A stretch of DNA of 64,000 nt from Caldithrix abyssi DSM 13497 (GTDB taxonomy: Bacteria > Calditrichota > Calditrichia > Calditrichales > Calditrichaceae), in contig NZ_CP018099.1 in assembly GCF_001886815.1 (NCBI RefSeq), forward strand, positions 4,834,501 through 4,898,500, written 5' to 3'. Below, piece after piece: positions 27,575 through 60,906 of the stretch. Each line of letters opens with the position of its first letter. The first letter of the stretch is position 1. The notes beneath the pieces were generated by a model, which was not told where the DNA came from, did no database searches, and saw only the letters and a list, made by a program, of their open reading frames with translations. Made by a program: the position numbers and the translations under genes.

Positions 27575-28018
27575 ATGGCTAAAAAATCTCACATTCGTTG
27601 TTGGTTACACATCCTCTGGGGCACCAAAAATCACGAAAAAATATTGACAGAAAAAGCCCGACTTAAACTCTCCACATATTTCTACAACTATGCCCGTGAA
27701 AAAGGAATTCACATGAAAATTAACCATGTCAGTCCAGACCACTTCCATGCCCTCGTTGAACTGCCCCCCAAAATGACCATCGAAGAACTATTCCATCTTC
27801 TAAAAGGCAGTTCGTCCCATTGGGTCAATCAAAACGATATCATCCCTCAAAAATTCGCCTGGGACAGCGAAAACACCGCCTTTTCCGTATCCCATTCAAA
27901 ACTAAAAACAGTCGAAAACTTCATCGCCAAACAGGAACAATTCCACTGGAAAATGACCTTCCGGCAGGAGCTCGACCTCCTTTTACAAAAACACGAGCTT
28001 CTCCGTTTGAAAACCTGA
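27575..28018 (+). CDS. IS200/IS605-type Y1 transposase-like protein, catalytic Tyr apparently replaced by Phe
   Basis: AGGAGGTATTTACA precedes the ATG. The 147-residue protein has the TnpA fold pattern: RCWLHILWGTKNHEKILTEK, the HUH motif in NHVSPDHFHALVELP (His-Phe-His), and LLKGSSSHWVNQ. In the usual C-terminal helix the nucleophile is Tyr in 'YIxxQ'; here the matching place reads VENFIAKQEQFHWKMTF, with Phe in place of Tyr. If the alignment is right, the protein cannot form the DNA-phosphotyrosine link. It is flanked by two related palindromes, reminiscent of IS200 hairpins or REP-associated transposases. It may be a domesticated or inactive single-strand DNA-binding relative. No TnpB is present. 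Confidence 0.7.
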   Translation: MAKKSHIRCWLHILWGTKNHEKILTEKARLKLSTYFYNYAREKGIHMKINHVSPDHFHALVELPPKMTIEELFHLLKGSSSHWVNQNDIIPQKFAWDSENTAFSVSHSKLKTVENFIAKQEQFHWKMTFRQELDLLLQKHELLRLKT

Positions 28019-29999: not shown

Positions 30000-30330
30000 C
30001 TTTCTTTTTCTCCGTATTTTTCACATCAATACTTCTCTAATTTAAAGAATATTTACCTTTTAAAAAATAACTTTTTCACCCAAAAATTAATTGGGGTAAG
30101 ATAATGAGGTTCCTCTAAAAAGGCATTATTATCTAATTACATTTAAATGGGGCTATTGTTTTTATTTAAATTAAATAAAATATATTCGTGTCCATTCGTG
30201 AAATTCGTGGTTTTTATACTAAACTCATTAATGTCAATCAATGGCCGTGCGGTTGTGTAGAAGCATCATTTTTTGCTTGACAACTTCATTTTCATTTTTT
30301 ATACTATTTATGATTAATTATGAGATTCTG
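30000..30330. other. AT-rich intergenic region upstream of the integrase, with ATTCGTG repeats
   Basis: No gene is seen. At 30184-30210 the heptamer ATTCGTG occurs three times at 9-10 base spacing (ATTCGTGTCC, ATTCGTGAA, ATTCGTGG). Regularly spaced direct repeats before intI could be regulatory, but this short string also occurs as debris in other genomes, so the call is weak. Confidence 0.35.
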
Positions 30331-31323
30331 ATGATGCTCACAACTTCCACACATACTTCTCGAAGGCAACCTAAATTGCTCGACCAGGTAAGGGCAGGGT
30401 TACGTTTAAAACATTACAGCTATCGTACGGAGCAGGCTTATATCCATTGGATCAAGCGCTTTATCTTTTTTCACAACAAACGGCATCCGTTGGAGATGGG
30501 GAAGCAGGAAATCAACGAATTTTTGACACATCTGGCAGTGAATGAAAAGGTTGCCGCTTCGACGCAGAATCAAGCCTTATGTGCTATTGTTTTTTTGTAC
30601 AAACATATACTTAACATTGATTTGGGTGATATTGGAGAAATTTACTGGTCAAAAAAGCCCCAAAAGTTGCCGGTTGTATTTACCCATAATGAAGCGAAGG
30701 CTGTGCTGGAAAAGCTTAATGGCGCCACCTGGTTAATGGCCATGCTGCTTTATGGAGCGGGATTGAGATTAAACGAGTGTTTGCAACTGCGCGTGAAAGA
30801 TATCGATTTTGAGTATAAGCAGATCACAGTCTGAAGCGGCAAGGGCGAGAAGGACCGGGTAACGCTATTGCCAGAAAAACTCATCATTCCATTAAAAAAA
30901 CAGATCGAATATGTAAAGAAATTACATGAATACGACTTAAAAAATGGATATGGTTCTGTTTACCTTCCTTATGCACTGGAAAGGAAATATCCTTTTGCAG
31001 GCAAGGAGCCTGGTTGGCAATTTTTATTTCCTGCGGCAAAAATATCGACAGATCCAAGAACGGGTATTAAGAGAAGACATCATATCCATCAATCTGTTTT
31101 ACAAAAGGCTGTAAAAAGAGCTATTCGAGAAGCGGGTATTACGAAACATGCCGGATGTCATACATTTCGTCATTCCTTTGCTACACGGCTTTTGGAAAAC
31201 GGCTATGATATACGCACCATTCAGGAATTGATGGGGCATAAAAATATTCAAACAACGATGATTTATACTCATGTGATAAAAAAAGGTGGGCTGGGAGTAA
31301 AAAGTCCTGCAGATGAAATTTAA
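30331..31323 (+). pseudogene. intI: Integron integrase (IntI-type tyrosine recombinase) with in-frame TGA
   Basis: The sequence matches IntI along its length: PKLLDQVRAGLRLKHYSYRT, YIHWIKRFIFFHNKRHP, LMAMLLYGAGLRLNECLQLR (catalytic Arg), then VKDIDFEYKQITV. At 30832-30834 a TGA occurs where the family normally has Arg (ITVRxGKGxKDR), so one CGA to TGA transition would explain it. The same frame continues [16 protein letters not shown] with no other damage. The IntI-specific extra segment is present ([20 protein letters not shown] then RTGIKRRHH). It ends with [34 protein letters not shown] (His, Arg, His, Tyr). The start is placed at the ATG pair 30331/30334, where homologs begin. The gene lies upstream of the cassettes and points the same way, the reverse of the classical layout. 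Readthrough of TGA cannot be excluded. Confidence 0.85.
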
Positions 31324-31340
31324 AAAATTACATAATAGAA

Positions 31341-31718
31341 ATGAGAACAAAGAGGACATTATATCCAGGACAAGCGGGCACAAAAAAATGGGTACAGAAA
31401 TATGGAGATCAATTAATTTGTGTCCGATATAAATACGACGCGCAACTTTGTCAAAAAATGATCACCGTAGAACTTGTTGAAGAAAAAAGCGCATGGCATA
31501 AAAAAGAAAATTATATTCCGAAAAATAAAATTGTTATGTTAAGAATCGACTATGGAGAGATTGATCTGGCGATGAAGGTAAAATCATTTGGCGGTAAATG
31601 GAATAGAAAAGAAAGAGCATGGGAATTGCGATTTGACGCCGTTCAAGCATTGGGTTTAGAAGATAGAATAGTGGGAGAAAGAAGATTAAGAAATGAATCA
31701 AAGAAGCAGCCTTCTTGA
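31341..31718 (+). CDS. Conserved protein of unknown function next to the integrase
   Basis: This 125-residue protein starts 18 bases after the integrase stop in the same direction. It begins MRTKRTLYPGQAGTKKWVQK, continues QLICVRYKYDAQLCQKMITV, and ends with KVKSFGGKWNRKERAWELRF, DAVQALGLEDRIVGERRL. Proteins with this 'YPGQxGTKK ... VRYRYD ... GGKWNxxxxxWELRYDxVxxLGLxDRIV' pattern occur in many bacteria, often near recombinases and transposons, without an assigned role. I infer no function. Its last codons form a hairpin (AAGAAG-CAGC-CTTCTT) with the stop inside, followed by a TTTTC run, a possible terminator. Confidence 0.65.
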   Translation: MRTKRTLYPGQAGTKKWVQKYGDQLICVRYKYDAQLCQKMITVELVEEKSAWHKKENYIPKNKIVMLRIDYGEIDLAMKVKSFGGKWNRKERAWELRFDAVQALGLEDRIVGERRLRNESKKQPS

Positions 31719-31719
31719 G

Positions 31720-31811
31720 TTTTCTAATAATAGAAAAAAATGTCTATATTTAGAAAAGTTTTTCTAAATATAGAAAAATTTTTTAAATTAGGGAGACTTA
31801 TAAACTAATAT
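31720..31811. promoter_or_regulatory. attI candidate with nested palindromes
   Basis: Between the integrase-linked gene and the first cassette lies TTTTCTA-ATAA-TAGAAAA (31720-31737). It is followed by a near-perfect palindrome with 14-bp arms, CTATATTTAGAAAA (31744-31757) and TTTTCTAAATATAG (31760-31773), separated by two bases. Then come an AT-rich run and ACTAATAT before the first GTTAAAC at 31812. The unit TAGAAAA or its complement occurs at least five times. Position is that of attI; the palindromes could be integrase or regulator sites, or a terminator. Confidence 0.55.
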
Positions 31812-32181
31812 GTTAAACGTACATATTCGCCTTTATGGTCGCAGCAACTTAGATGAAATGTGAAACCTTTTTTGTTAAGATTAAATAACGGCACGGAGGA
31901 ACGGCAAAAAGTCCATTGAGTTGAAATAGCTTTTTTATTTAAGGTGTGGCCTTTTTGCCTTGTTCCAAAAACGTTGTAAAAAATTAGCGTTGCTGCTTGC
32001 CTGACGCAGGTTTGTTTGGTATTTTATCATCAAGCAGGTTAACGCATTTTGTTCAGGCGTTTAACCGGTCGCTCAACCAGACGCCAAAACGCGGGCGGCA
32101 ATTTGAAAGGGTGGTGTAGTTGTGCGCAATCCTGGTGGTTTGAAAATACAGTGAAATAATTTTGGCGCAGGTTAGCTCATC
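31812..32181 (+). repeat. Non-coding cassette 1 (370 bp), adjacent to attI
   Basis: It starts GTTAAACGTACATATTCGCC and ends at an attC from R'' GTTTAAC (32059) to R' (32182). Internal features are a 9-bp hairpin GGCAAAAAG/CTTTTTGCC (31903-31911, 31951-31959) and a possible promoter TTGCCT-N17-TATTTT (31997-32025). By eye it is identical to cassette 22 at 51304-51673, including private variants. No convincing ORF. Confidence 0.85.
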
Positions 32182-33338: not shown

Positions 33339-35711
33339 ATGAAAAAATCTCCAAAAAATATTTTTTTTGCATATGAAAGTGGACATCCTGAAAATAAGGA
33401 CGCGATTCATAAAGCAGTAAAAGAGTTTAACGCTCATCAAAAGAAATACAGAGCTAAGACATGGGAAGACCTTACTATTTCTGGAAAGGTTATTAACAAG
33501 ACAATATTTGATCAGATAGAAAAATGTGATATTTTTGCTTGTGATTTAACATATCTTAATCATAATGTACTTTTTGAACTTGGTTATGCGATTGGAAAAG
33601 GAAAAAAGTTATTAATATTTTTGAATAAAAATATACATAATGCTGTTGAACAATATCGAAGTTTTAAGATCTTAAGTAATATCGGATATGTCCATTTTGA
33701 AAACCATAAAGGTATTTTACGAGAACTACAAAATAAAGTAAATGTATATAATGTATTAATTTCTCAATTGGTAAATTTAAATCAAATTAAAAAGAATACT
33801 CATGATATTTTTTATATTTCTTCTAAAAGTAATACTCAAGCAGCCTTAGAGTTGTCAGATTATTTAAAATCGTTATCCTACAAAATAATAACTGATGATA
33901 CCAGCGAAGTAGAATATCAAACACTTATTTGGTATTTAACTAGCTTATTCAAGTCAAATCATATAATAATTCATCTTTTGCCAATTTCTTATATTAATAG
34001 TAATTATACAAATAGTGAATCTTCCTTTTTTGCAGGACTAGGACTTGGTTTAGGAAAGAAAACAATTCTAGTAGCTCAAAAGCCTTTTAAAGCTCCTATA
34101 GATTATTCTGATATTCTTATAGAATATGATGATGCAATAGATTGTTTAATTAAAATTGAAGATTGGATTAAAACTCATGTAGAACCTTTTAAAATTACTG
34201 GAAAAATAAAAAAACTTGATATACATAAGGAAGAAAAAAAACTAAATTTGATAAAATTAGGTATTGGTTGTGAAATCGCAGAAGAAGAAAAAAATGAATT
34301 ACTTAATTATTTTATCGAAATAGAGGCTTATAGAAAATCTTTAGAGAAGACAATATCAATTTTTGTTGGACAAAAAGGAACTGGTAAATCGGCTGTTTTT
34401 ATTAAATTATGTGATGATTTATCAAAGTATAATAAAAATTTTAACATTATTATTAAGCCAGATTCAGATGAGCTATTAGATAACGTAGAGCTTTCAAATT
34501 TATATAACAATGAAAGGTCCAAAAAATCATTTTTATTTACAGTTTGGGCATATGTAGTATATGCTAAACTAATAGAACTAATTTTTTCAAAAATAAAAAA
34601 TAAAAACAAACCATATTATTCTCCTTCTAAAGAAGAAAAGGCAATAATAGAATTTAGAAATAAATATAAAGATGAACTCCATCTAAATTTTTATGGCGCA
34701 ATTTTAAAATTAAGCAAAATTATTGGTGACGATAGTTTAATAAATAATCCTTCGTTGTTAAATCATATTTATGATTATTTTATAACAGAAGCTAAGAATA
34801 TAATCAGAGAATATTTTAAAAATGAAAAATATTTTTCTGTAAACATATTGGCCGATAATTTGGATAAAACTTGGGATTTTAAAAATGATCTTTCACTCCA
34901 ATCTGATATGATTTTAAGTCTTTTTGAATTTAGTAGTAAATTAGTAAAAGATATAAAAGCAAAAAATGAGTCAGAGATAAAAGTTAATATTACAATTTTC
35001 CTCAGGAAAGATATTTTTGATTTTATTCTAAAAAACTCACGTGAACCTGATAAATTAACAGTTAGAGCATACGAAATTAGTTGGGAAAAAAATGAAAAGA
35101 TTTTACGCAAGTTGATAGAAAAGAGATTTGAATATAATTTAAATCTTAAATCTAAAGAAGAAATTGAAAAAGTTTGGATTGATTATTTTGACTTTGGTAA
35201 TAATAGACATCCATATGATACAATAAGAAAGATAATTGTATCTAGACCACGTGATGCAATATTTTTTATGTCAAAATTATTTGAGTCCGCTGTTAATGAA
35301 GACCATTCAAAAGTTAATAAAAAGGATTTAGATTATGCCATTGATGCGTATTCTAATTTTTTACAAAAAAATATTGTAGCTGAAATGAAAGCTGAATTTC
35401 CAAGAATAGATGAACTTTTTAATAAATTATTTTTAGAATATATCAATGAAAAAATAGAATTTGAAAGATTTAAACAGTTGGTTCTGTCTCTAAATTATAC
35501 AAAAGAGAAATTTGAAAAACTAATAGAAATCTTGTTTAAAAAGAAATTTATTGTTTGTTTAGTAGATGGTGAAAAAGGGATTATCAATAATTTAAGCACA
35601 CTTAATTATAAATTATCAGAAAAAAAATACTTATTTTTTCCTAAAAATAAAATTTTTGTAATCCCAAACCCACAGGAATATTTATTAAAACAGTGGAAAA
35701 AAATAGAATAA
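33339..35711 (+). CDS. TIR-like/Sll1717-type P-loop ATPase, putative defence protein
   Basis: This 790-residue protein is the only gene of cassette 33291-35808. Residues 1-100 have a TIR-like or deoxyribosyltransferase-like fold: KNIFFAYESGHPENKDAI, ISGKVINKTIFDQIEKCDIF, CDLTYLNHNVLFELGYAIGK, with Glu80 in FELGY as candidate catalytic residue. A second similar but weaker domain spans about 155-265 (DIFYISSKSNTQAALELSDY ... SFFAGLGLGLGKKTILVAQK). A P-loop NTPase follows, with Walker A GQKGTGKS at 344-351 and a Walker-B-like VNILADNLD at 501-509, resembling the Sll1717 family. The C-terminal 200 residues are helical. This sensor-ATPase-effector layout is typical of abortive-infection ATPases; if TIR-like, the N terminus could cleave NAD. 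Ribosome-binding signal weak. AT-rich and clearly foreign. Confidence 0.7.
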   Translation: MKKSPKNIFFAYESGHPENKDAIHKAVKEFNAHQKKYRAKTWEDLTISGKVINKTIFDQIEKCDIFACDLTYLNHNVLFELGYAIGKGKKLLIFLNKNIHNAVEQYRSFKILSNIGYVHFENHKGILRELQNKVNVYNVLISQLVNLNQIKKNTHDIFYISSKSNTQAALELSDYLKSLSYKIITDDTSEVEYQTLIWYLTSLFKSNHIIIHLLPISYINSNYTNSESSFFAGLGLGLGKKTILVAQKPFKAPIDYSDILIEYDDAIDCLIKIEDWIKTHVEPFKITGKIKKLDIHKEEKKLNLIKLGIGCEIAEEEKNELLNYFIEIEAYRKSLEKTISIFVGQKGTGKSAVFIKLCDDLSKYNKNFNIIIKPDSDELLDNVELSNLYNNERSKKSFLFTVWAYVVYAKLIELIFSKIKNKNKPYYSPSKEEKAIIEFRNKYKDELHLNFYGAILKLSKIIGDDSLINNPSLLNHIYDYFITEAKNIIREYFKNEKYFSVNILADNLDKTWDFKNDLSLQSDMILSLFEFSSKLVKDIKAKNESEIKVNITIFLRKDIFDFILKNSREPDKLTVRAYEISWEKNEKILRKLIEKRFEYNLNLKSKEEIEKVWIDYFDFGNNRHPYDTIRKIIVSRPRDAIFFMSKLFESAVNEDHSKVNKKDLDYAIDAYSNFLQKNIVAEMKAEFPRIDELFNKLFLEYINEKIEFERFKQLVLSLNYTKEKFEKLIEILFKKKFIVCLVDGEKGIINNLSTLNYKLSEKKYLFFPKNKIFVIPNPQEYLLKQWKKIE

Positions 35712-35815: not shown

Positions 35816-35849
35816 GTACATATTCGCCTTTATGGTCGCAGCAACTTAG

Positions 35850-37745
35850 CCCATCTTGAACACTAAAACGATTTAAGTTATTTAAAAACAACATGTCGTT
35901 CTTTTTTATTACCACTACAATATTTAAATTCTTATCTTTTTCATACCTAATGGCTTTGGCTTGATCTTAAATGCCTGCGCCATTAAATAATGAATCGCCT
36001 CCGGTTCGGTCGTATCTCTTATAACTAATAAATCTCCTTTCTGAGTTTTCATCTCCACGCTTACTCGCTGCTGTACGGAAAGTAATTCACGAATGGTTGT
36101 CCAGCGATGATAAACGCCTGCATCATGTAATTGTTTTTGAAGACTTATCAATACATGAAAGGCTAAAATCGAAATGAAAATATGCCCTTCAATGCGTTTA
36201 TCCTTCTGGTGAAAATTAGGCCTTAAGCCTAATTCACTCTTCAACGAGCGAAATCCATCCTCCACATCCGTTAAACTGATGTAGAGCTGCCAAATCTCAC
36301 GATCCGTTAAATCCAGACGACTCGTCCGTAAATAATACGTGCCGGAAAATCGATCATCCATCTTTTGCTCATCTTTTATCTTCCAGCTGATCTCTGTCAC
36401 GATACCATTGTGATGCTTAACCGTAATATCATAAAAATAGGCCACTTTTGCATGGCGTTCCTTTATACGGCCAATGCGTTCTAAAACCTTGGGATATTTC
36501 TTCGTGCCTCGTTTCTTGTGCAAACTCTCCGCCGCATATTTCAACTCCGCCTCAAAGCGCTGCTGATGAAATTGTCGAATGGCTTCCTCTTTCTTTTGCC
36601 TTGAGGCGCTGCGACAGTATAAATAAAGCTCTTTATCCTTACGGTAAAGATAGGCTTCCACTTTATGGCGTTGATCGTGATTAATCTCTTTAAAAGCATT
36701 TTCTTCGATCTCGATTTCCGGTTTACTGCGTGAGACAACCAGATAGTCGTGTCCACGCTTTGTGATCAGTTGCAAGTTCTCTTCTGTGGCAATCCCGGCA
36801 TCTAAAATAATCAATTTCCTGACTTTGCCGCCTATCGTATCCAGAATTTTAGACAAAGTCTCTGGTTCGGAAACATTGCTAGAGAAAAGACGACTCTCCT
36901 TGGGGAATCCATCCTCATCCAATACCAGGCCTAAAGTAACCAGGGGCATATCGTGACGCTTATCTTTACTACGTCCGCGAGCCTTGAGTTCACTGGTACG
37001 ACTACTCTCAAAATACGTATTGGTTAAATCGTACAGGATGATCTTTTCCTGCAAGGAAAATAACAGACGCTCTTGCTCTACTAAACCATTCTCGATTTTG
37101 TCCTTATGTTCTAAACGATCAACAGTTCGGCCAGTTTAATATCCTTCTCCTTAAAGCCCAGCTTTTTTAAAAGTTCATTGAACTTAAGCTTTCTTAACAT
37201 CATCAAACTGATGTATTCGCCTCCTATACTGCTAGCATCTCTGAATTTGACAGAGCCCGTAAAAATGGTCTCGGTTTCCTGTGGGCTTTCTTTTTTTTCT
37301 ACCTTTTCTTGTTTTAGTTTGTTTTGAATTAAAAGCGAGGCATAGCGCTGGGCTAATTGTTCAATTTGCTCGTCCACTTCGATCAGTGAAGCTTGTCCGC
37401 TTATGATCTCTTCGATGCGATTGGCAAGTGTTTTCCATTGGTCTTTAGGAATGGTAAGCTTGCCCAGGTTGAGCAATTTTCTTTGTCTTGGGCCTTTTTC
37501 AGTACGATAGGATTCGACCAATTGATGGTAAACGAAGGTTTTATCGTACCCTTTATTCTTTTTTGTGACTTCTTTAATAAACATGTTCAAATATAATCAT
37601 ATCAGCCTATTAAGTCAAGGGAAAAACCAATATAGTATGGGGCACTACAACGACATCTCGAAAACTCGATCCAAAAAAACCAATAACTTACAAAAACCGA
37701 AGGTGGAAATTTGGTGATTTGGGCTTAAATTTTGTTCAAGATGGG
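35850..37745 (-). mobile_element. IS1634-type insertion sequence, copy B (1,896 bp, internally deleted)
   Basis: It has the same CCCATCTTGAACA ends as copies A and C and a TTAG duplication (35846-35849, 37746-37749). It is 136 bp shorter than its siblings because of a deletion within the transposase gene near 37113. Confidence 0.9.
35924..37590 (-). pseudogene. Broken IS1634-family transposase, copy B
   Basis: The reading frame is split. The N-terminal part (37590 down to 37111, 159 codons) and the C-terminal part (37054 down to 35924) match the 600-residue transposase at 25091-26893. Between them 136 bp are missing: the sequence goes directly from TTATGTTCTAA to ACGATCAACAGTTCGG. The loss is not a multiple of three, so the frame shifts. 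The catalytic Asp and Glu residues remain in the C-terminal part. The element could move only with a transposase from copies A or C. Confidence 0.9.
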
Positions 37746-54635: not shown

Positions 54636-54660
54636 ACTAAATTAAACAACAAAAGCTTAA

Positions 54661-56692
54661 CCCATCTTGAACACTAAAACGATTTAAGTTATTTAAAAAC
54701 AACATGTCGTTCTTTTTTATTACCACTACAATATTCAAACTCTTATCTTTTTACTGCCTAATGGCTTGGGCTTGATCTTCAATGCCTGCGCCATTAAATA
54801 ATGGATCGCTTCCGGCTCGGTCGTATCTCTTATGACTAATAAATCTCCTTTCTGCGTTTTCATCTCAACGCTTACGCGCTGCTGTACGGAAAGTAATTCA
54901 CGAATGGTTGACCAGCGATGATAAACGCCGGCATCATGTAATTGTTTTTGAAGACTTATCAATACATGAAAGGCTAAAATCGAAATGAAAATATGCCCCT
55001 CAATGCGCTTATCCTTCTGGTGAAAATTAGGCCTTAAGCCTAACTCACTCTTCAACGAGCGAAATCCATCCTCCACATCCGTTAAACTGATGTAGAGTTG
55101 CCAGATCTGGCGATCTGTTAAATCCAGACGACTCGTCCGCAAATAATATGTGCCGGAAAATCGATCATCCATCTTTTGCTCGTCTTTTATCTTCCAGCTG
55201 ATCTCTGTTACGATACCATTATGGTGCTCAACCGTAATATCATAAAAATAGGCCACCTTTGCATGACGTTCCTTTATGCGGCCAATGCGTTCTAAAACCT
55301 TGGAATATTTCTTGGTGCCTCGTTTCTTGTGCAAACTCTCCGCCGCATATTTCAACTCCGCCTCAAAGCGCTGCTGATGAAATTGTCGAATGGCTTCCTC
55401 TTTCTTTTGCCTTGAGGCGCTGCGACAGTATAAATAAAGCTCTTTATCCTTACGGTAAAGATAGGCTTCCACTTTATGGCGTTGATCGTGATTAATCTCT
55501 TTAAAAGCATTTTCTTCGATCTCGATTTCCGGTTTACTGCGTGAGACAACCAGATAGTCGTGTCCACGCTTTGTGATCAGTTGCAAGTTCTCTTCTGTGG
55601 CAATCCCGGCATCTAAAATAATCAATTTCCTGACTTTGCCGCCTATCGTATCCAGAATTTTAGACAAAGTCTCTGGTTCGGAAACATTGCCAGAGAAAAG
55701 ACGACTCTCCTTGGGGAATCCATCCTCATCCAATACCAGGCCTAAAGTCACCAGGGGCATATCGTAACGCTTGTCTTTACTGCGTCCGCGAGCCTTGAGC
55801 TCGCTGGTACGGCTGCTCTCAAAATATGTATTGGTTAAATCGTACAGGATGATCTTTTCCTGCAAAGAAAATAACAGTCGTTCTTGCTCTACCAAACCAT
55901 TTTCGATTTTGTCCTTATGTTCTAATAATTGATCCGTAATTCGATAAAGTTTATTGTGAGAAAGTCTTGAAAGGTCTAACTCTAAAAGCTCATCGATGGC
56001 GCTTTGCTTTTTGACCCAGCGTAAGGTCGCCCATTCGCTTGAGGGGTGCACCAGGCGCCCAACGATCAACAGTTCGGCCAGTTTAATATCCTTCTCCTTA
56101 AAGCCCAGCTTTTTTAAAAGTTCATTGAACTTAAGCTTTCTTAACATCATCAAACTGATGTATTCGCCTCCTATACTGCGAGCATCTCTGAATTTGACAG
56201 AGCCCGTAAAAATGGTCTCGGTTTCCTGTGGGCTTTCTTTTTTTTCTACCTTTTCTTGTTTTAGTTTGTTTTGAATTAAAAGCGAGGCATAGCGCTGGGC
56301 TAATTGTTCAATTTGCTCATCCACTTCGATCAGTGAAGTTTGTCCGCTTATGATCTCTTCGATGCGATTGGCAAGTGTTTTCCATTGGTCTTTAGGAATG
56401 GTAAGCTTGCCCAGGTTGAGCAATTTTCTTTGTCTTGGGCCTTTTTCAGTACGATAGGATTCGACCAATTGATGGTAAACGAAGGTTTTATCGTACCCTT
56501 TATTCTTTTTTGTGACTTCTTTAATAAACATGTTCAAATATAATCATATCAGTCAATTAAGTCAAGGGGGAAACCAATATAGTATGGGGCACTACAACGA
56601 CATCTCGAAAACTCGATCCAAAAAAACCAATAACTTACAAAAACCGAAGGTGGAAATTTGGTGATTTGGGCTTAAATTTTGTTCAAGATGGG
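54661..56692 (-). mobile_element. IS1634-type insertion sequence, copy C (2,032 bp)
   Basis: Ends CCCATCTTGAACA (54661) and TGTTCAAGATGGG (to 56692); duplicated target TTAA (54657-54660, 56693-56696). It splits an attC: AAAAGCTTAA on the left, TTAAGCACGG on the right. Confidence 0.9.
54735..56537 (-). CDS. IS1634-family transposase, copy C
   Basis: This is a 600-residue intact transposase almost the same as that at 25091-26893. The few differences include KRYDMP for KRHDMP, TDRQIW for TDREIW, WSTIREL for WTTIREL and LGSKKIRV at the end. The catalytic region residues are unchanged (ILYDLTNTYFES, IILDAGIATEEN, TDVEDGFRSLKSE). More base differences than between IS1182 copies suggest it separated earlier or came from another lineage. 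Confidence 0.9.
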   Translation of the reverse strand: MNMFIKEVTKKNKGYDKTFVYHQLVESYRTEKGPRQRKLLNLGKLTIPKDQWKTLANRIEEIISGQTSLIEVDEQIEQLAQRYASLLIQNKLKQEKVEKKESPQETETIFTGSVKFRDARSIGGEYISLMMLRKLKFNELLKKLGFKEKDIKLAELLIVGRLVHPSSEWATLRWVKKQSAIDELLELDLSRLSHNKLYRITDQLLEHKDKIENGLVEQERLLFSLQEKIILYDLTNTYFESSRTSELKARGRSKDKRYDMPLVTLGLVLDEDGFPKESRLFSGNVSEPETLSKILDTIGGKVRKLIILDAGIATEENLQLITKRGHDYLVVSRSKPEIEIEENAFKEINHDQRHKVEAYLYRKDKELYLYCRSASRQKKEEAIRQFHQQRFEAELKYAAESLHKKRGTKKYSKVLERIGRIKERHAKVAYFYDITVEHHNGIVTEISWKIKDEQKMDDRFSGTYYLRTSRLDLTDRQIWQLYISLTDVEDGFRSLKSELGLRPNFHQKDKRIEGHIFISILAFHVLISLQKQLHDAGVYHRWSTIRELLSVQQRVSVEMKTQKGDLLVIRDTTEPEAIHYLMAQALKIKPKPLGSKKIRV

Positions 56693-60146: not shown

Positions 60147-60906
60147 GAATCCCATCCACTGTTGAGCAAAAAAAATGTATGAGTTAAAAAGTCGTTTAAG
60201 CGAATGGTTGATCAGAAATTTACCGGCGAAGACATCACGTACACCGTCGGCAGAAATTCTCCCCGGCAAGTTCTTCCCCCTCTCCCAGATTCTTGTTCTG
60301 GGAGAGGGGGAGTGAGGGGGTGAGGGCAAAAAATAAGAATCCCATCCACTGTTGAGCAAAAAAAGTGTATGAGTTAAAAAGTCGTTTAAGCGAATGGTTG
60401 AACAGAAATTTACCGGCGAAGGCATCACGTCCGCTGTCGGAAGAAATTCTCCCCGGCAAGTTCTTCCCCTCTCCCAGATTCTTGTTCTGGGAGAGGGGGA
60501 GTGAGGGGGTGAGGGCAAAAAATAAGAATCCTTTCCACTGTTGAGCAAAAAAAGTGTATGAGTTAAAAAGTCGTTTAAGCGAATGGTTGATCAGAAATTT
60601 ACCGGCGAAGGCATCACGTACACCGTCGGCAGAAATTCTCCCCGGCAAGTTCTTCCCCCTCTCCCAGATTCTTGTTCTGGGAGAGGGGGAGTGAGGGGGT
60701 GAGGGCAAAAAATAAGAATCCCATCCACTGTTGAGCAAAAAAAGTGTATGAGTTAAAAAGTCGTTTAAGCGAATGGTTGAACAGAATTTGGCCGACGAAG
60801 ACATCGCGCCCACCGTCGGAAGAAATTCTCCCCGGCAAGTTCCTCCCCCTCTCCCATATTTTTATTCTGGGAGAGGGAGATCGAGAAGGGTTGGGCAAGA
60901 AAGGTA
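60147..60906. repeat. Four tandem ~190-bp repeats with a strong hairpin
   Basis: Units begin at about 60147, 60337, 60526 and 60716 (GAATCCCATCCACTGTTGAG). Each holds CCCCTCTCCCAGA-TTCTTGT-TCTGGGAGAGGGG, a stem of about 13-14 bp, followed by a GTGAGGGGGTGAGGG run (units 1-3). Unit 4 is more diverged. The region runs from the IS copy to just before the glycosidase gene's end. Open frames through it are repeats of one another and are not believed. Confidence 0.85.

Follow-up and report, generated by a model that had tools for sequence, protein, structure and literature searches.

What function is served by the palindromes that lie between the integrase-linked gene and the first cassette of the Caldithrix abyssi DSM 13497 integron? 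A first-pass annotation described them as nested palindromes in the attI position, which could be recognized by the integrase, by a neighboring protein of 125 residues or by a regulator. The window, that is, the whole 64,000-nucleotide stretch of DNA analyzed here, comes from a genome that consists of a single contig of 4.98 Mb. The repeats are best read as iterons, binding sites for the protein encoded by the adjoining frame (orf125), and this protein most likely acts as an integron-encoded accessory factor of attI; we put the probability of this reading at roughly 0.55.

On one strand of the window, the integron integrase gene (IntI; 30337-31323) is followed by orf125 (31341-31718), the palindromic stretch and the cassettes, whose boundary lies at 31812. 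The placement of the palindromes in the first-pass annotation is thus borne out by the coordinates. The features of the locus are the following:

30277..30305, + strand: promoter-like site TTGACA-17-TATACT upstream of intI, from a consensus scan (11/12) that says nothing of function.
30337..31323, + strand: integron integrase gene (IntI) from its putative start, by match to TIGR02249, with an in-frame TGA.
31341..31718, + strand: orf125, 125 codons, proposed dyad-binding protein, from residue-base covariation and predicted structure.
31721..31736, no strand: iteron 1, TTTCTA-ATAA-TAGAAA, centered at 31728.5.
31741..31756, no strand: iteron 2, TGTCTA-TATT-TAGAAA, centered at 31748.5.
31761..31776, no strand: iteron 3, TTTCTA-AATA-TAGAAA, centered at 31768.5.
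31796..31818, + strand: predicted attI simple site with core GTTAAAC (31812-31818) and a left box that is inferred, at the first of 16 cassette starts.
31812..32181, + strand: first cassette, a unit of ~370 bp with no long ORF, 16 copies of which start between 31812 and 54275.

The integrase gene is split by an in-frame TGA (30832-30834), with IntI-like sequence to either side. Read through this stop, the product scores 467 bits against TIGR02249 (cut-off 265) and aligns from residue 14 onward to positions 1-314 of 315. The integron system of the window may therefore be decaying, although the orf125 frame is open and the dyads are well formed despite the interrupted IntI. At two related loci (L051 and L052), the integrases adjoining orf125 are likewise broken or truncated; 5′ of the truncated integrase of L052 (reverse complement 750-1005) lie direct repeats of ~50 bp with TTTAGA and CGGAATGC motifs. 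In class 1 integrons, the integrase is divergent from the cassettes, whereas integrase and cassettes are co-oriented in the window. Upstream of the integron is a Y1 transposase-like (IS200-like) gene (27575-28018).

The GTTAAAC at 31812 is the sole GTTRRRY in 31641-31830, conforms to the attI core pattern and stands on the integrase side of the first cassette, 43.5 bp from the center of iteron 3. The segment 31796-31818 is therefore the predicted attI, and recombination by IntI at this place is predicted from the sequence. An attC site was rejected for the palindromic stretch, since the + strand of 31641-31830 holds no RYYYAAC; a strict attC scan of the + strand from 28000 to 60000 gave nine attC-like sites, none of them within the stretch. 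Among the copies of the ~370-bp cassette (31812-54600), some 300-nt stretches are 100% alike. The longest open stretch in one unit examined is 48 codons and the cassette has no Rfam match; it is possibly a non-coding RNA or a spacer cassette. At the boundary of attI and the first cassette opens a 17-codon frame (31810-31863) with AGGGAG upstream, which presumably resembles the short ORF-11 of attI1. A cassette protein of 790 residues (33339-35711) has a weak TIR-like N-terminus, below Pfam cut-offs, and is a possible defense gene. Two pieces, 35845-37413 inside the array and 54656-56360 at its end, have 300-nt matched pairs (94% and 99%) at their ends, the first carrying a DDE transposase gene (35924-37054), and 60147-60877 is a tandem array with a period of 190 bp (3.9 copies, 94% matches).

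The palindromic stretch is more aptly described as a tandem run of three 16-bp dyads, TCTA-N4-TAGA, with an exact 20-bp period, beginning 2 bp past orf125 and finishing 35 bp short of the boundary at 31812. Both elements of the first-pass annotation exist: a palindrome with 14-bp arms (31744-31757 and 31760-31773) that are fully complementary with 2 nt between them, and a second pair, TTTTCTA...TAGAAAA, at 31720-31737. Their nesting gives way to the dyad repeated every 20 bp as the real unit. The perfect arm is actually 15 nt and extends to 24 nt at 88% (31734-31757 and 31760-31783), and this long palindrome is simply iterons 2 and 3 facing each other. The annotation had also counted at least five copies of TAGAAAA or its complement, and five are found in 31720-31777, with another at 31604. 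Over the whole window, the motif is not enriched (30 copies against 29.1 expected), and only its clustering is unusual.

Could such symmetry arise by chance in AT-rich intergenic DNA? The stretch is indeed very AT-rich, and when 31719-31811 was shuffled 5000 times with dinucleotides preserved, three N4 dyads with at least 5/6 pairs arose in 751 shuffles; the dyad count alone is therefore not special in such DNA. A perfect arm of at least 15 nt, in contrast, arose in 2/5000 shuffles, and three TCTA-N4-TAGA in 0/5000, which agrees with the first-pass judgment that the arrangement is more regular than a chance AT-rich run. Only four TCTA-N4-TAGA occur in the 64-kb window, three of them here and exactly 20 bp apart. 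In the whole genome, an 18-mer pattern allowing up to two mismatches has seven matches, four of them in the array; the reversed control pattern has three. As the same layout also recurs after orf125 in other phyla, chance is refuted in the main and its probability is negligible.

This recurrence was found with an orf125 profile scan of species genomes, which gave 290 relatives. The best 80 of the 290 come from Calditrichota, KSB1, Chloroflexi, Acidobacteria, Rokubacteria, several proteobacterial groups and others. These genes are often followed by dyads, which are alike within a locus, differ between loci and are mostly 20 bp apart. The nearest comparison is with a second species of the genus, in which neither the integrase nor orf125 is intact; its contig (G002:C159, L051), which is contained in JAJRSN010000254.1 of a Calditrichota bacterium (L061), has a decayed orf125 followed by TTTCCTAATATTTGGAAA and TTTCCTAATATTGGAAA. 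A contig of the same class carries four or five GTTTCTGATATAAGAAAC-like repeats in the same position, and another contig of the phylum search carries five TTTATGGTATCATAAA-like repeats. In the phylum of G058, repeats of another type, resembling GTTACTTATATAGGTAAC, follow orf125 relatives (L290, L291, L292, L297 and L300) and were missed by the caller.

Within 150 bp past orf125 (77 loci), N4 dyads with 6/6 pairs reach 5.4 per kb (61 in 11.3 kb), compared with 1.2 per kb for odd centers there (13), 1.0 at the gene's end (12 in 12.1 kb), 0.8 upstream (10 in 12.2 kb) and 0.2 further down (2 in 8.4 kb). Two or more looser dyads (spacer 0-6) stand within 150 bp at 33/74 loci, against 5/74 upstream and 1/53 further down, with a mean of 1.47 against 0.43 in shuffles. 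Consensus-based calling among the best 80 of 290 relatives finds chains of two to seven dyads past the stop codon at 58 of the 75 testable loci, the window included. The controls give such chains at 9/81 (upstream), 17/53 (further down), 15/81 (in the gene) and 32/75 (reversed sequence), the last of which makes chains of two weak evidence in AT-rich DNA. Chains of at least three occur at 35/75 loci after orf125 and at 4/81 upstream, 7/53 further down, 1/81 inside the gene and 15/75 in reversed sequence. Calling free of a consensus gives an iteron family at 58/85 loci, with wrong registers or noise in some, and several orf125 loci show no dyads (L055/L013, L193, L200, L094 and others).

Many of the called chains are followed by an attI-like core, putative and assigned by pattern. 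After removal of rows with near-identical first 60 bases, the spacing between dyads is 20 bp in 46 of 121 intervals and 25 bp in 14, and the last dyad center stands 28.5-35.5 bp from the first attI-like core at 21/44 loci, 39.5-46.5 bp at nine (43.5 in the window), 13.5-25.5 bp at eight and over 50 bp at six. The strict scan places attC-like structures downstream at 12/51 loci and upstream at 1/51, with a sensitivity to be judged from the nine that it found on the + strand of the window's array region, where at least 16 cassettes start.

A protein that reads these dyads can be proposed because their half-sites covary with a residue of orf125. When the alignment columns examined were ranked by half-site sharing, residue 5 came first and residue 4 second. 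Of the 58 loci with an iteron family from consensus-free calling, 16 were dropped by eye (noise, wrong register or near-duplicates), which left 42 for training. All 24 training loci with Leu5 have A at half-site position 2 (CATCTA, TATCTA, TATCTT, CATATA, CATCCA or TATATA), compared with 0/11 of those with Arg5 or Lys5. The seven Arg5 loci have TTTCTA, TTTCTG or TGTCTA, the four Lys5 loci TTCCTA, TGTCTA or TTTCCA, the two Val5 loci TTTATA or TTTATG, the one Ser5 locus TTTGTA and the one Thr5 locus TTTCTA; the three Ala5 loci are mixed.

The Leu5 rule was fixed in writing first; only then was a caller that is neutral at half-site positions 1 and 2 applied to further loci. From 106 non-training loci, 29 whose protein had at least 90% identity with one of the training set and a further 19 that matched one another at this level were removed, leaving a test set of 58. 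Iterons were callable at 19 of these and uncallable at 39, ten of the latter being Leu5. All ten callable Leu5 loci have A; five of them (L164, L167, L279, L282 and L287) were first looked at after the rule was fixed, and the other five (L091, L096, L110, L113 and L132) came from the orf125 profile scan, their sequence or dyads being known beforehand; L091, L110 and L113 were among the 16 loci dropped from training. Arg5 or Lys5 goes with T in 3/3 and with A in 0/3, with two ties (L054, T with G; L090, T with A). For other residues, the test gave T at one Ser5 locus, A at two and T at one Ala5 locus, and A at one Glu5 and one Thr5 locus; with Ala, Glu or Thr as residue 5, the base is not predictable.

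With all loci pooled (62), Leu5 has A in 34/34 and other residues in 6/28 (Fisher 1e-11, ignoring kinship); in this table, test states were entered by hand, L107 and L166 (one dyad each) were added, and 62 of 63 rows were used, L099 (Leu5, TATCTA) being left out for its short alignment. An orf125 tree that leaves out the first 12 residues has 14 independent pairs, with ~9.9 changes the same way and 0 opposite (p ~0.002), and well-supported branches alone give five pairs, with three to four the same way and 0 opposite (p 0.125). More than 350 bp separate the residue-5 codon from the dyads, and local sequence overlap therefore does not account for the covariation. Overall half-site distance follows orf125 distance weakly (rho 0.23, 42 loci, p 0.002), and at the 17 loci with a full IntI, it shows no significant correlation with the distance of either orf125 (rho 0.10, p 0.20) or IntI (rho -0.08, p 0.75). 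These data are sequence-based, include draft genomes and contain a by-eye step in the training set.

Since the half-site covaries with residue 5, orf125 very probably encodes the dyad-binding protein, which makes the 125-residue neighbor the best of the binders proposed at first pass. That annotation had also counted rapid divergence of the palindromes among strains with a conserved integron against its reading. Between loci, the outcome is one that it did not foresee: the sequence changes, yet the dyads recur with the same position, symmetry, spacing and likeness within a locus, and the changes of half-site letters track one residue of orf125.

The predicted structure of orf125 (pLDDT 87.7 for the whole model and 92.0 for the domain) begins with a domain of beta-alpha-beta-beta topology at the N-terminus, and residue 5 falls in its first strand (2-7). 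Foldseek searches with the whole model and with this domain gave nothing at E <= 0.001, the best VIA-align results were Z 3.8 (rmsd 2.8, 54 aligned) and Z 3.1 (rmsd 8.5, 50 aligned), and comparison with the sequences of solved structures gave two matches only (best E 0.72). Thus, these structure searches recognized no known DNA-binding fold, which does not show the fold to be new. Similarity to DUF5710 (PF18974) appears in 23 of 74 scanned relatives at E <= 0.1, an E threshold and not Pfam's cut-off (best 4.4e-6). It covers the C-terminal part; the window's protein has no DUF5710 match, and the N-terminal half could be assigned to no family. Plasmids gave no match to orf125, no function was found for its protein family, and, judged by title and opening of the abstract, the CC-licensed PubMed Central papers brought up by the literature searches include no description of such an array or protein.

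Does the array belong to orf125 or to IntI? Among the best 80 of 290 relatives, an IntI match lies within 3 kb of orf125 at 36/80 loci: on the 5′ side and the same strand at 12, divergent at 22 and on the 3′ side at two (L084 and L094), where no dyad chain was called. As IntI lies on its 5′ side in 34/36, orf125 stands on the array side. A sample based on IntI was taken to escape the bias of searching with orf125. It comprises 20 loci from Calditrichota, 13 from Chloroflexi and 30 each from Acidobacteria, Deltaproteobacteria and Betaproteobacteria among the matches listed; outside Calditrichota, the phyla are those of named records. An orf125 relative stands near IntI at 16 of the 123 loci (5, 3, 6, 2 and 0 by group, among the matches listed), one of them being a fragment at a contig end. 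The other 107 do without it, as do most integrons. Strict chains occur at 5/16 IntI loci with orf125 and at 5/107 without among the matches listed, and by eye, the latter five chains consist of members that do not resemble one another. Of the 16 with orf125, six have clear dyads by eye (L005, L184, L189, L192, L228 and L234), three have weak or single dyads (L004, L021 and L175), six have none (L013, L172, L173, L193, L200 and L206), and L008 is cut off. A similarity-based scan of longer Calditrichota contigs finds a five-member cluster at one of four IntI loci with orf125 and pairs at 4/16 without it.

Conversely, 22 orf125 loci have no full IntI nearby, namely 21 of the 44 lacking any IntI match together with L106 (a fragment). 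An IntI over the cut-off is present elsewhere in twelve of their genomes; the other ten, all drafts, show none. In eight of these ten, orf125 is followed by two or more dyads, which would require a role that does not depend on an IntI nearby. Six genomes (G045, G050, G054, G056, G057 and G061) have three to six orf125-like matches each, some on contigs without a listed full IntI, and may possibly hold arrays without integrase. The IntI-based samples and the arrays without a detected full IntI thus show that the array goes with orf125. On a tree of 144 IntI, 41 of them with orf125, the state changes 17 times, so the association comes and goes; the IntI-based subset (118 IntI, 15 with orf125) has ten changes.

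These comparisons bear on the idea that the dyads are extra IntI sites, like DR1 and DR2 of attI1. The dyads do occupy the equivalent position, 5′ of the attI simple site. The unequal share of strict chains with and without orf125 speaks against it and disfavors the recognition by the integrase suggested at first pass, and attI1-type DR sites, which should be present with IntI whatever its neighbors, were rejected on the same counts. Half-sites fail to follow IntI distance and track orf125 residue 5 instead, and arrays persist in draft genomes without a detected full IntI, so this idea is improbable.

Still less probable is that the repeats act as RNA, either as hairpins or as a terminator after orf125. 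A 6-bp stem with a 4-nt loop would also suit an RNA hairpin, and 31700-31815 folds well (z -5.0). Against this, no intrinsic terminator (G+C-rich stem and T run) is called in 31718-31812 and the window has no Rfam match at the gathering score. Over 1110 pair positions in 185 iterons, including loci later dropped, G-T mismatches (63) are not clearly above A-C (51), although RNA would favor G-U. RNA would also explain neither the 20-bp period nor why the half-sites vary with a protein residue, whereas sequence-specific half-sites with a 20-bp period fit a protein on duplex DNA.

If the orf125 protein binds the dyads, it could instead control transcription by silencing, insulating or road-blocking read-through into the cassettes from an intI-orf125 transcript or a Pc promoter. 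The covariation and the array evidence fit this equally well, the dyads stand between the intI-orf125 unit and the cassettes, and arrays are kept in eight of the ten draft genomes without a detected full IntI. We nevertheless consider it unlikely as the main role, though it deserves weight. No promoter-like site is found in 31718-31812, and the core distances cluster near 32 and 42 bp (30/44 loci), which a mere silencer would not need. Dyads are also rare upstream of orf125, where an autoregulated operator is expected; arrays at attI but seldom upstream of orf125 argue against simple autoregulation.

For the orf125 protein, we infer a role as attI accessory factor first and in control of array transcription second. 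Each 16-bp dyad (a 6-bp half-site, a 4-bp center and the inverted half-site) would hold one orf125 dimer, whose N-terminal beta-strand would read the outer half-site bases in the groove, with residue 5 setting the base at position 2. Dimers placed every 20 bp, or about two helical turns, would line one face of the duplex, forming a nucleoprotein block that would stop three to four turns before the attI crossover. In this way, the protein may bend or mark attI and help or gate IntI in attI x attC insertion, a part played in other systems by arm-type sites or the IntI1 direct repeats, though here through a separate protein. Because the IntI frame is interrupted by a stop, the array of the window may now be a relic or serve transcription only.

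Known systems offer partial parallels. Lambda-like integrases have an arm-binding domain within the integrase and arm-type sites beside the core site. The dyads likewise form an array of accessory sites beside the core of a tyrosine recombinase, but the arm-binding domain is fused to the integrase in lambda-like systems, whereas orf125 is a separate frame of ~110-125 residues with no recognized fold. DUF5710 is a possible further link, for some relatives though not for the window protein. DR1 and DR2 of attI1 are, like the window dyads, repeated sites adjoining the attI simple site, and they are reported to favor attI1 x attC (PMC8946536). They differ in being direct repeats bound by IntI1, whereas the orf125 dyads often number more than two, go with a separate gene and covary with its residue 5. 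Such direct repeats are absent from most attI sites, according to two papers, in which the IntIA integrase of Vibrio cholerae is also believed to rely on as yet unidentified accessory proteins for attIA x attC (PMC8946536; PMC8191803). These proposed host factors resemble the proposed role of orf125 in being an extra protein for attI x attC; orf125 differs in being integron-encoded and matched to sites at attI.

Integrons are defined by the insertion of cassettes at attI, and in those that carry it, the orf125 protein is a concrete accessory-factor candidate. This matters because unknown accessory proteins have been proposed for chromosomal integrons (PMC8946536; PMC8191803). The residue-5 rule makes the matching of orf125 to its dyads cheaply testable. 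On this evidence, some integrons seem to encode a helper protein of their own at the site where new genes insert. A broader and more tentative reading, possible though we would not yet bet on it, is that integrons of a split arm type exist in several phyla, in which a dedicated new-fold protein on phased iterons would control IntI insertion through a residue-to-base code. If so, orf125-iteron modules away from IntI would offer additional docking sites, served in trans.
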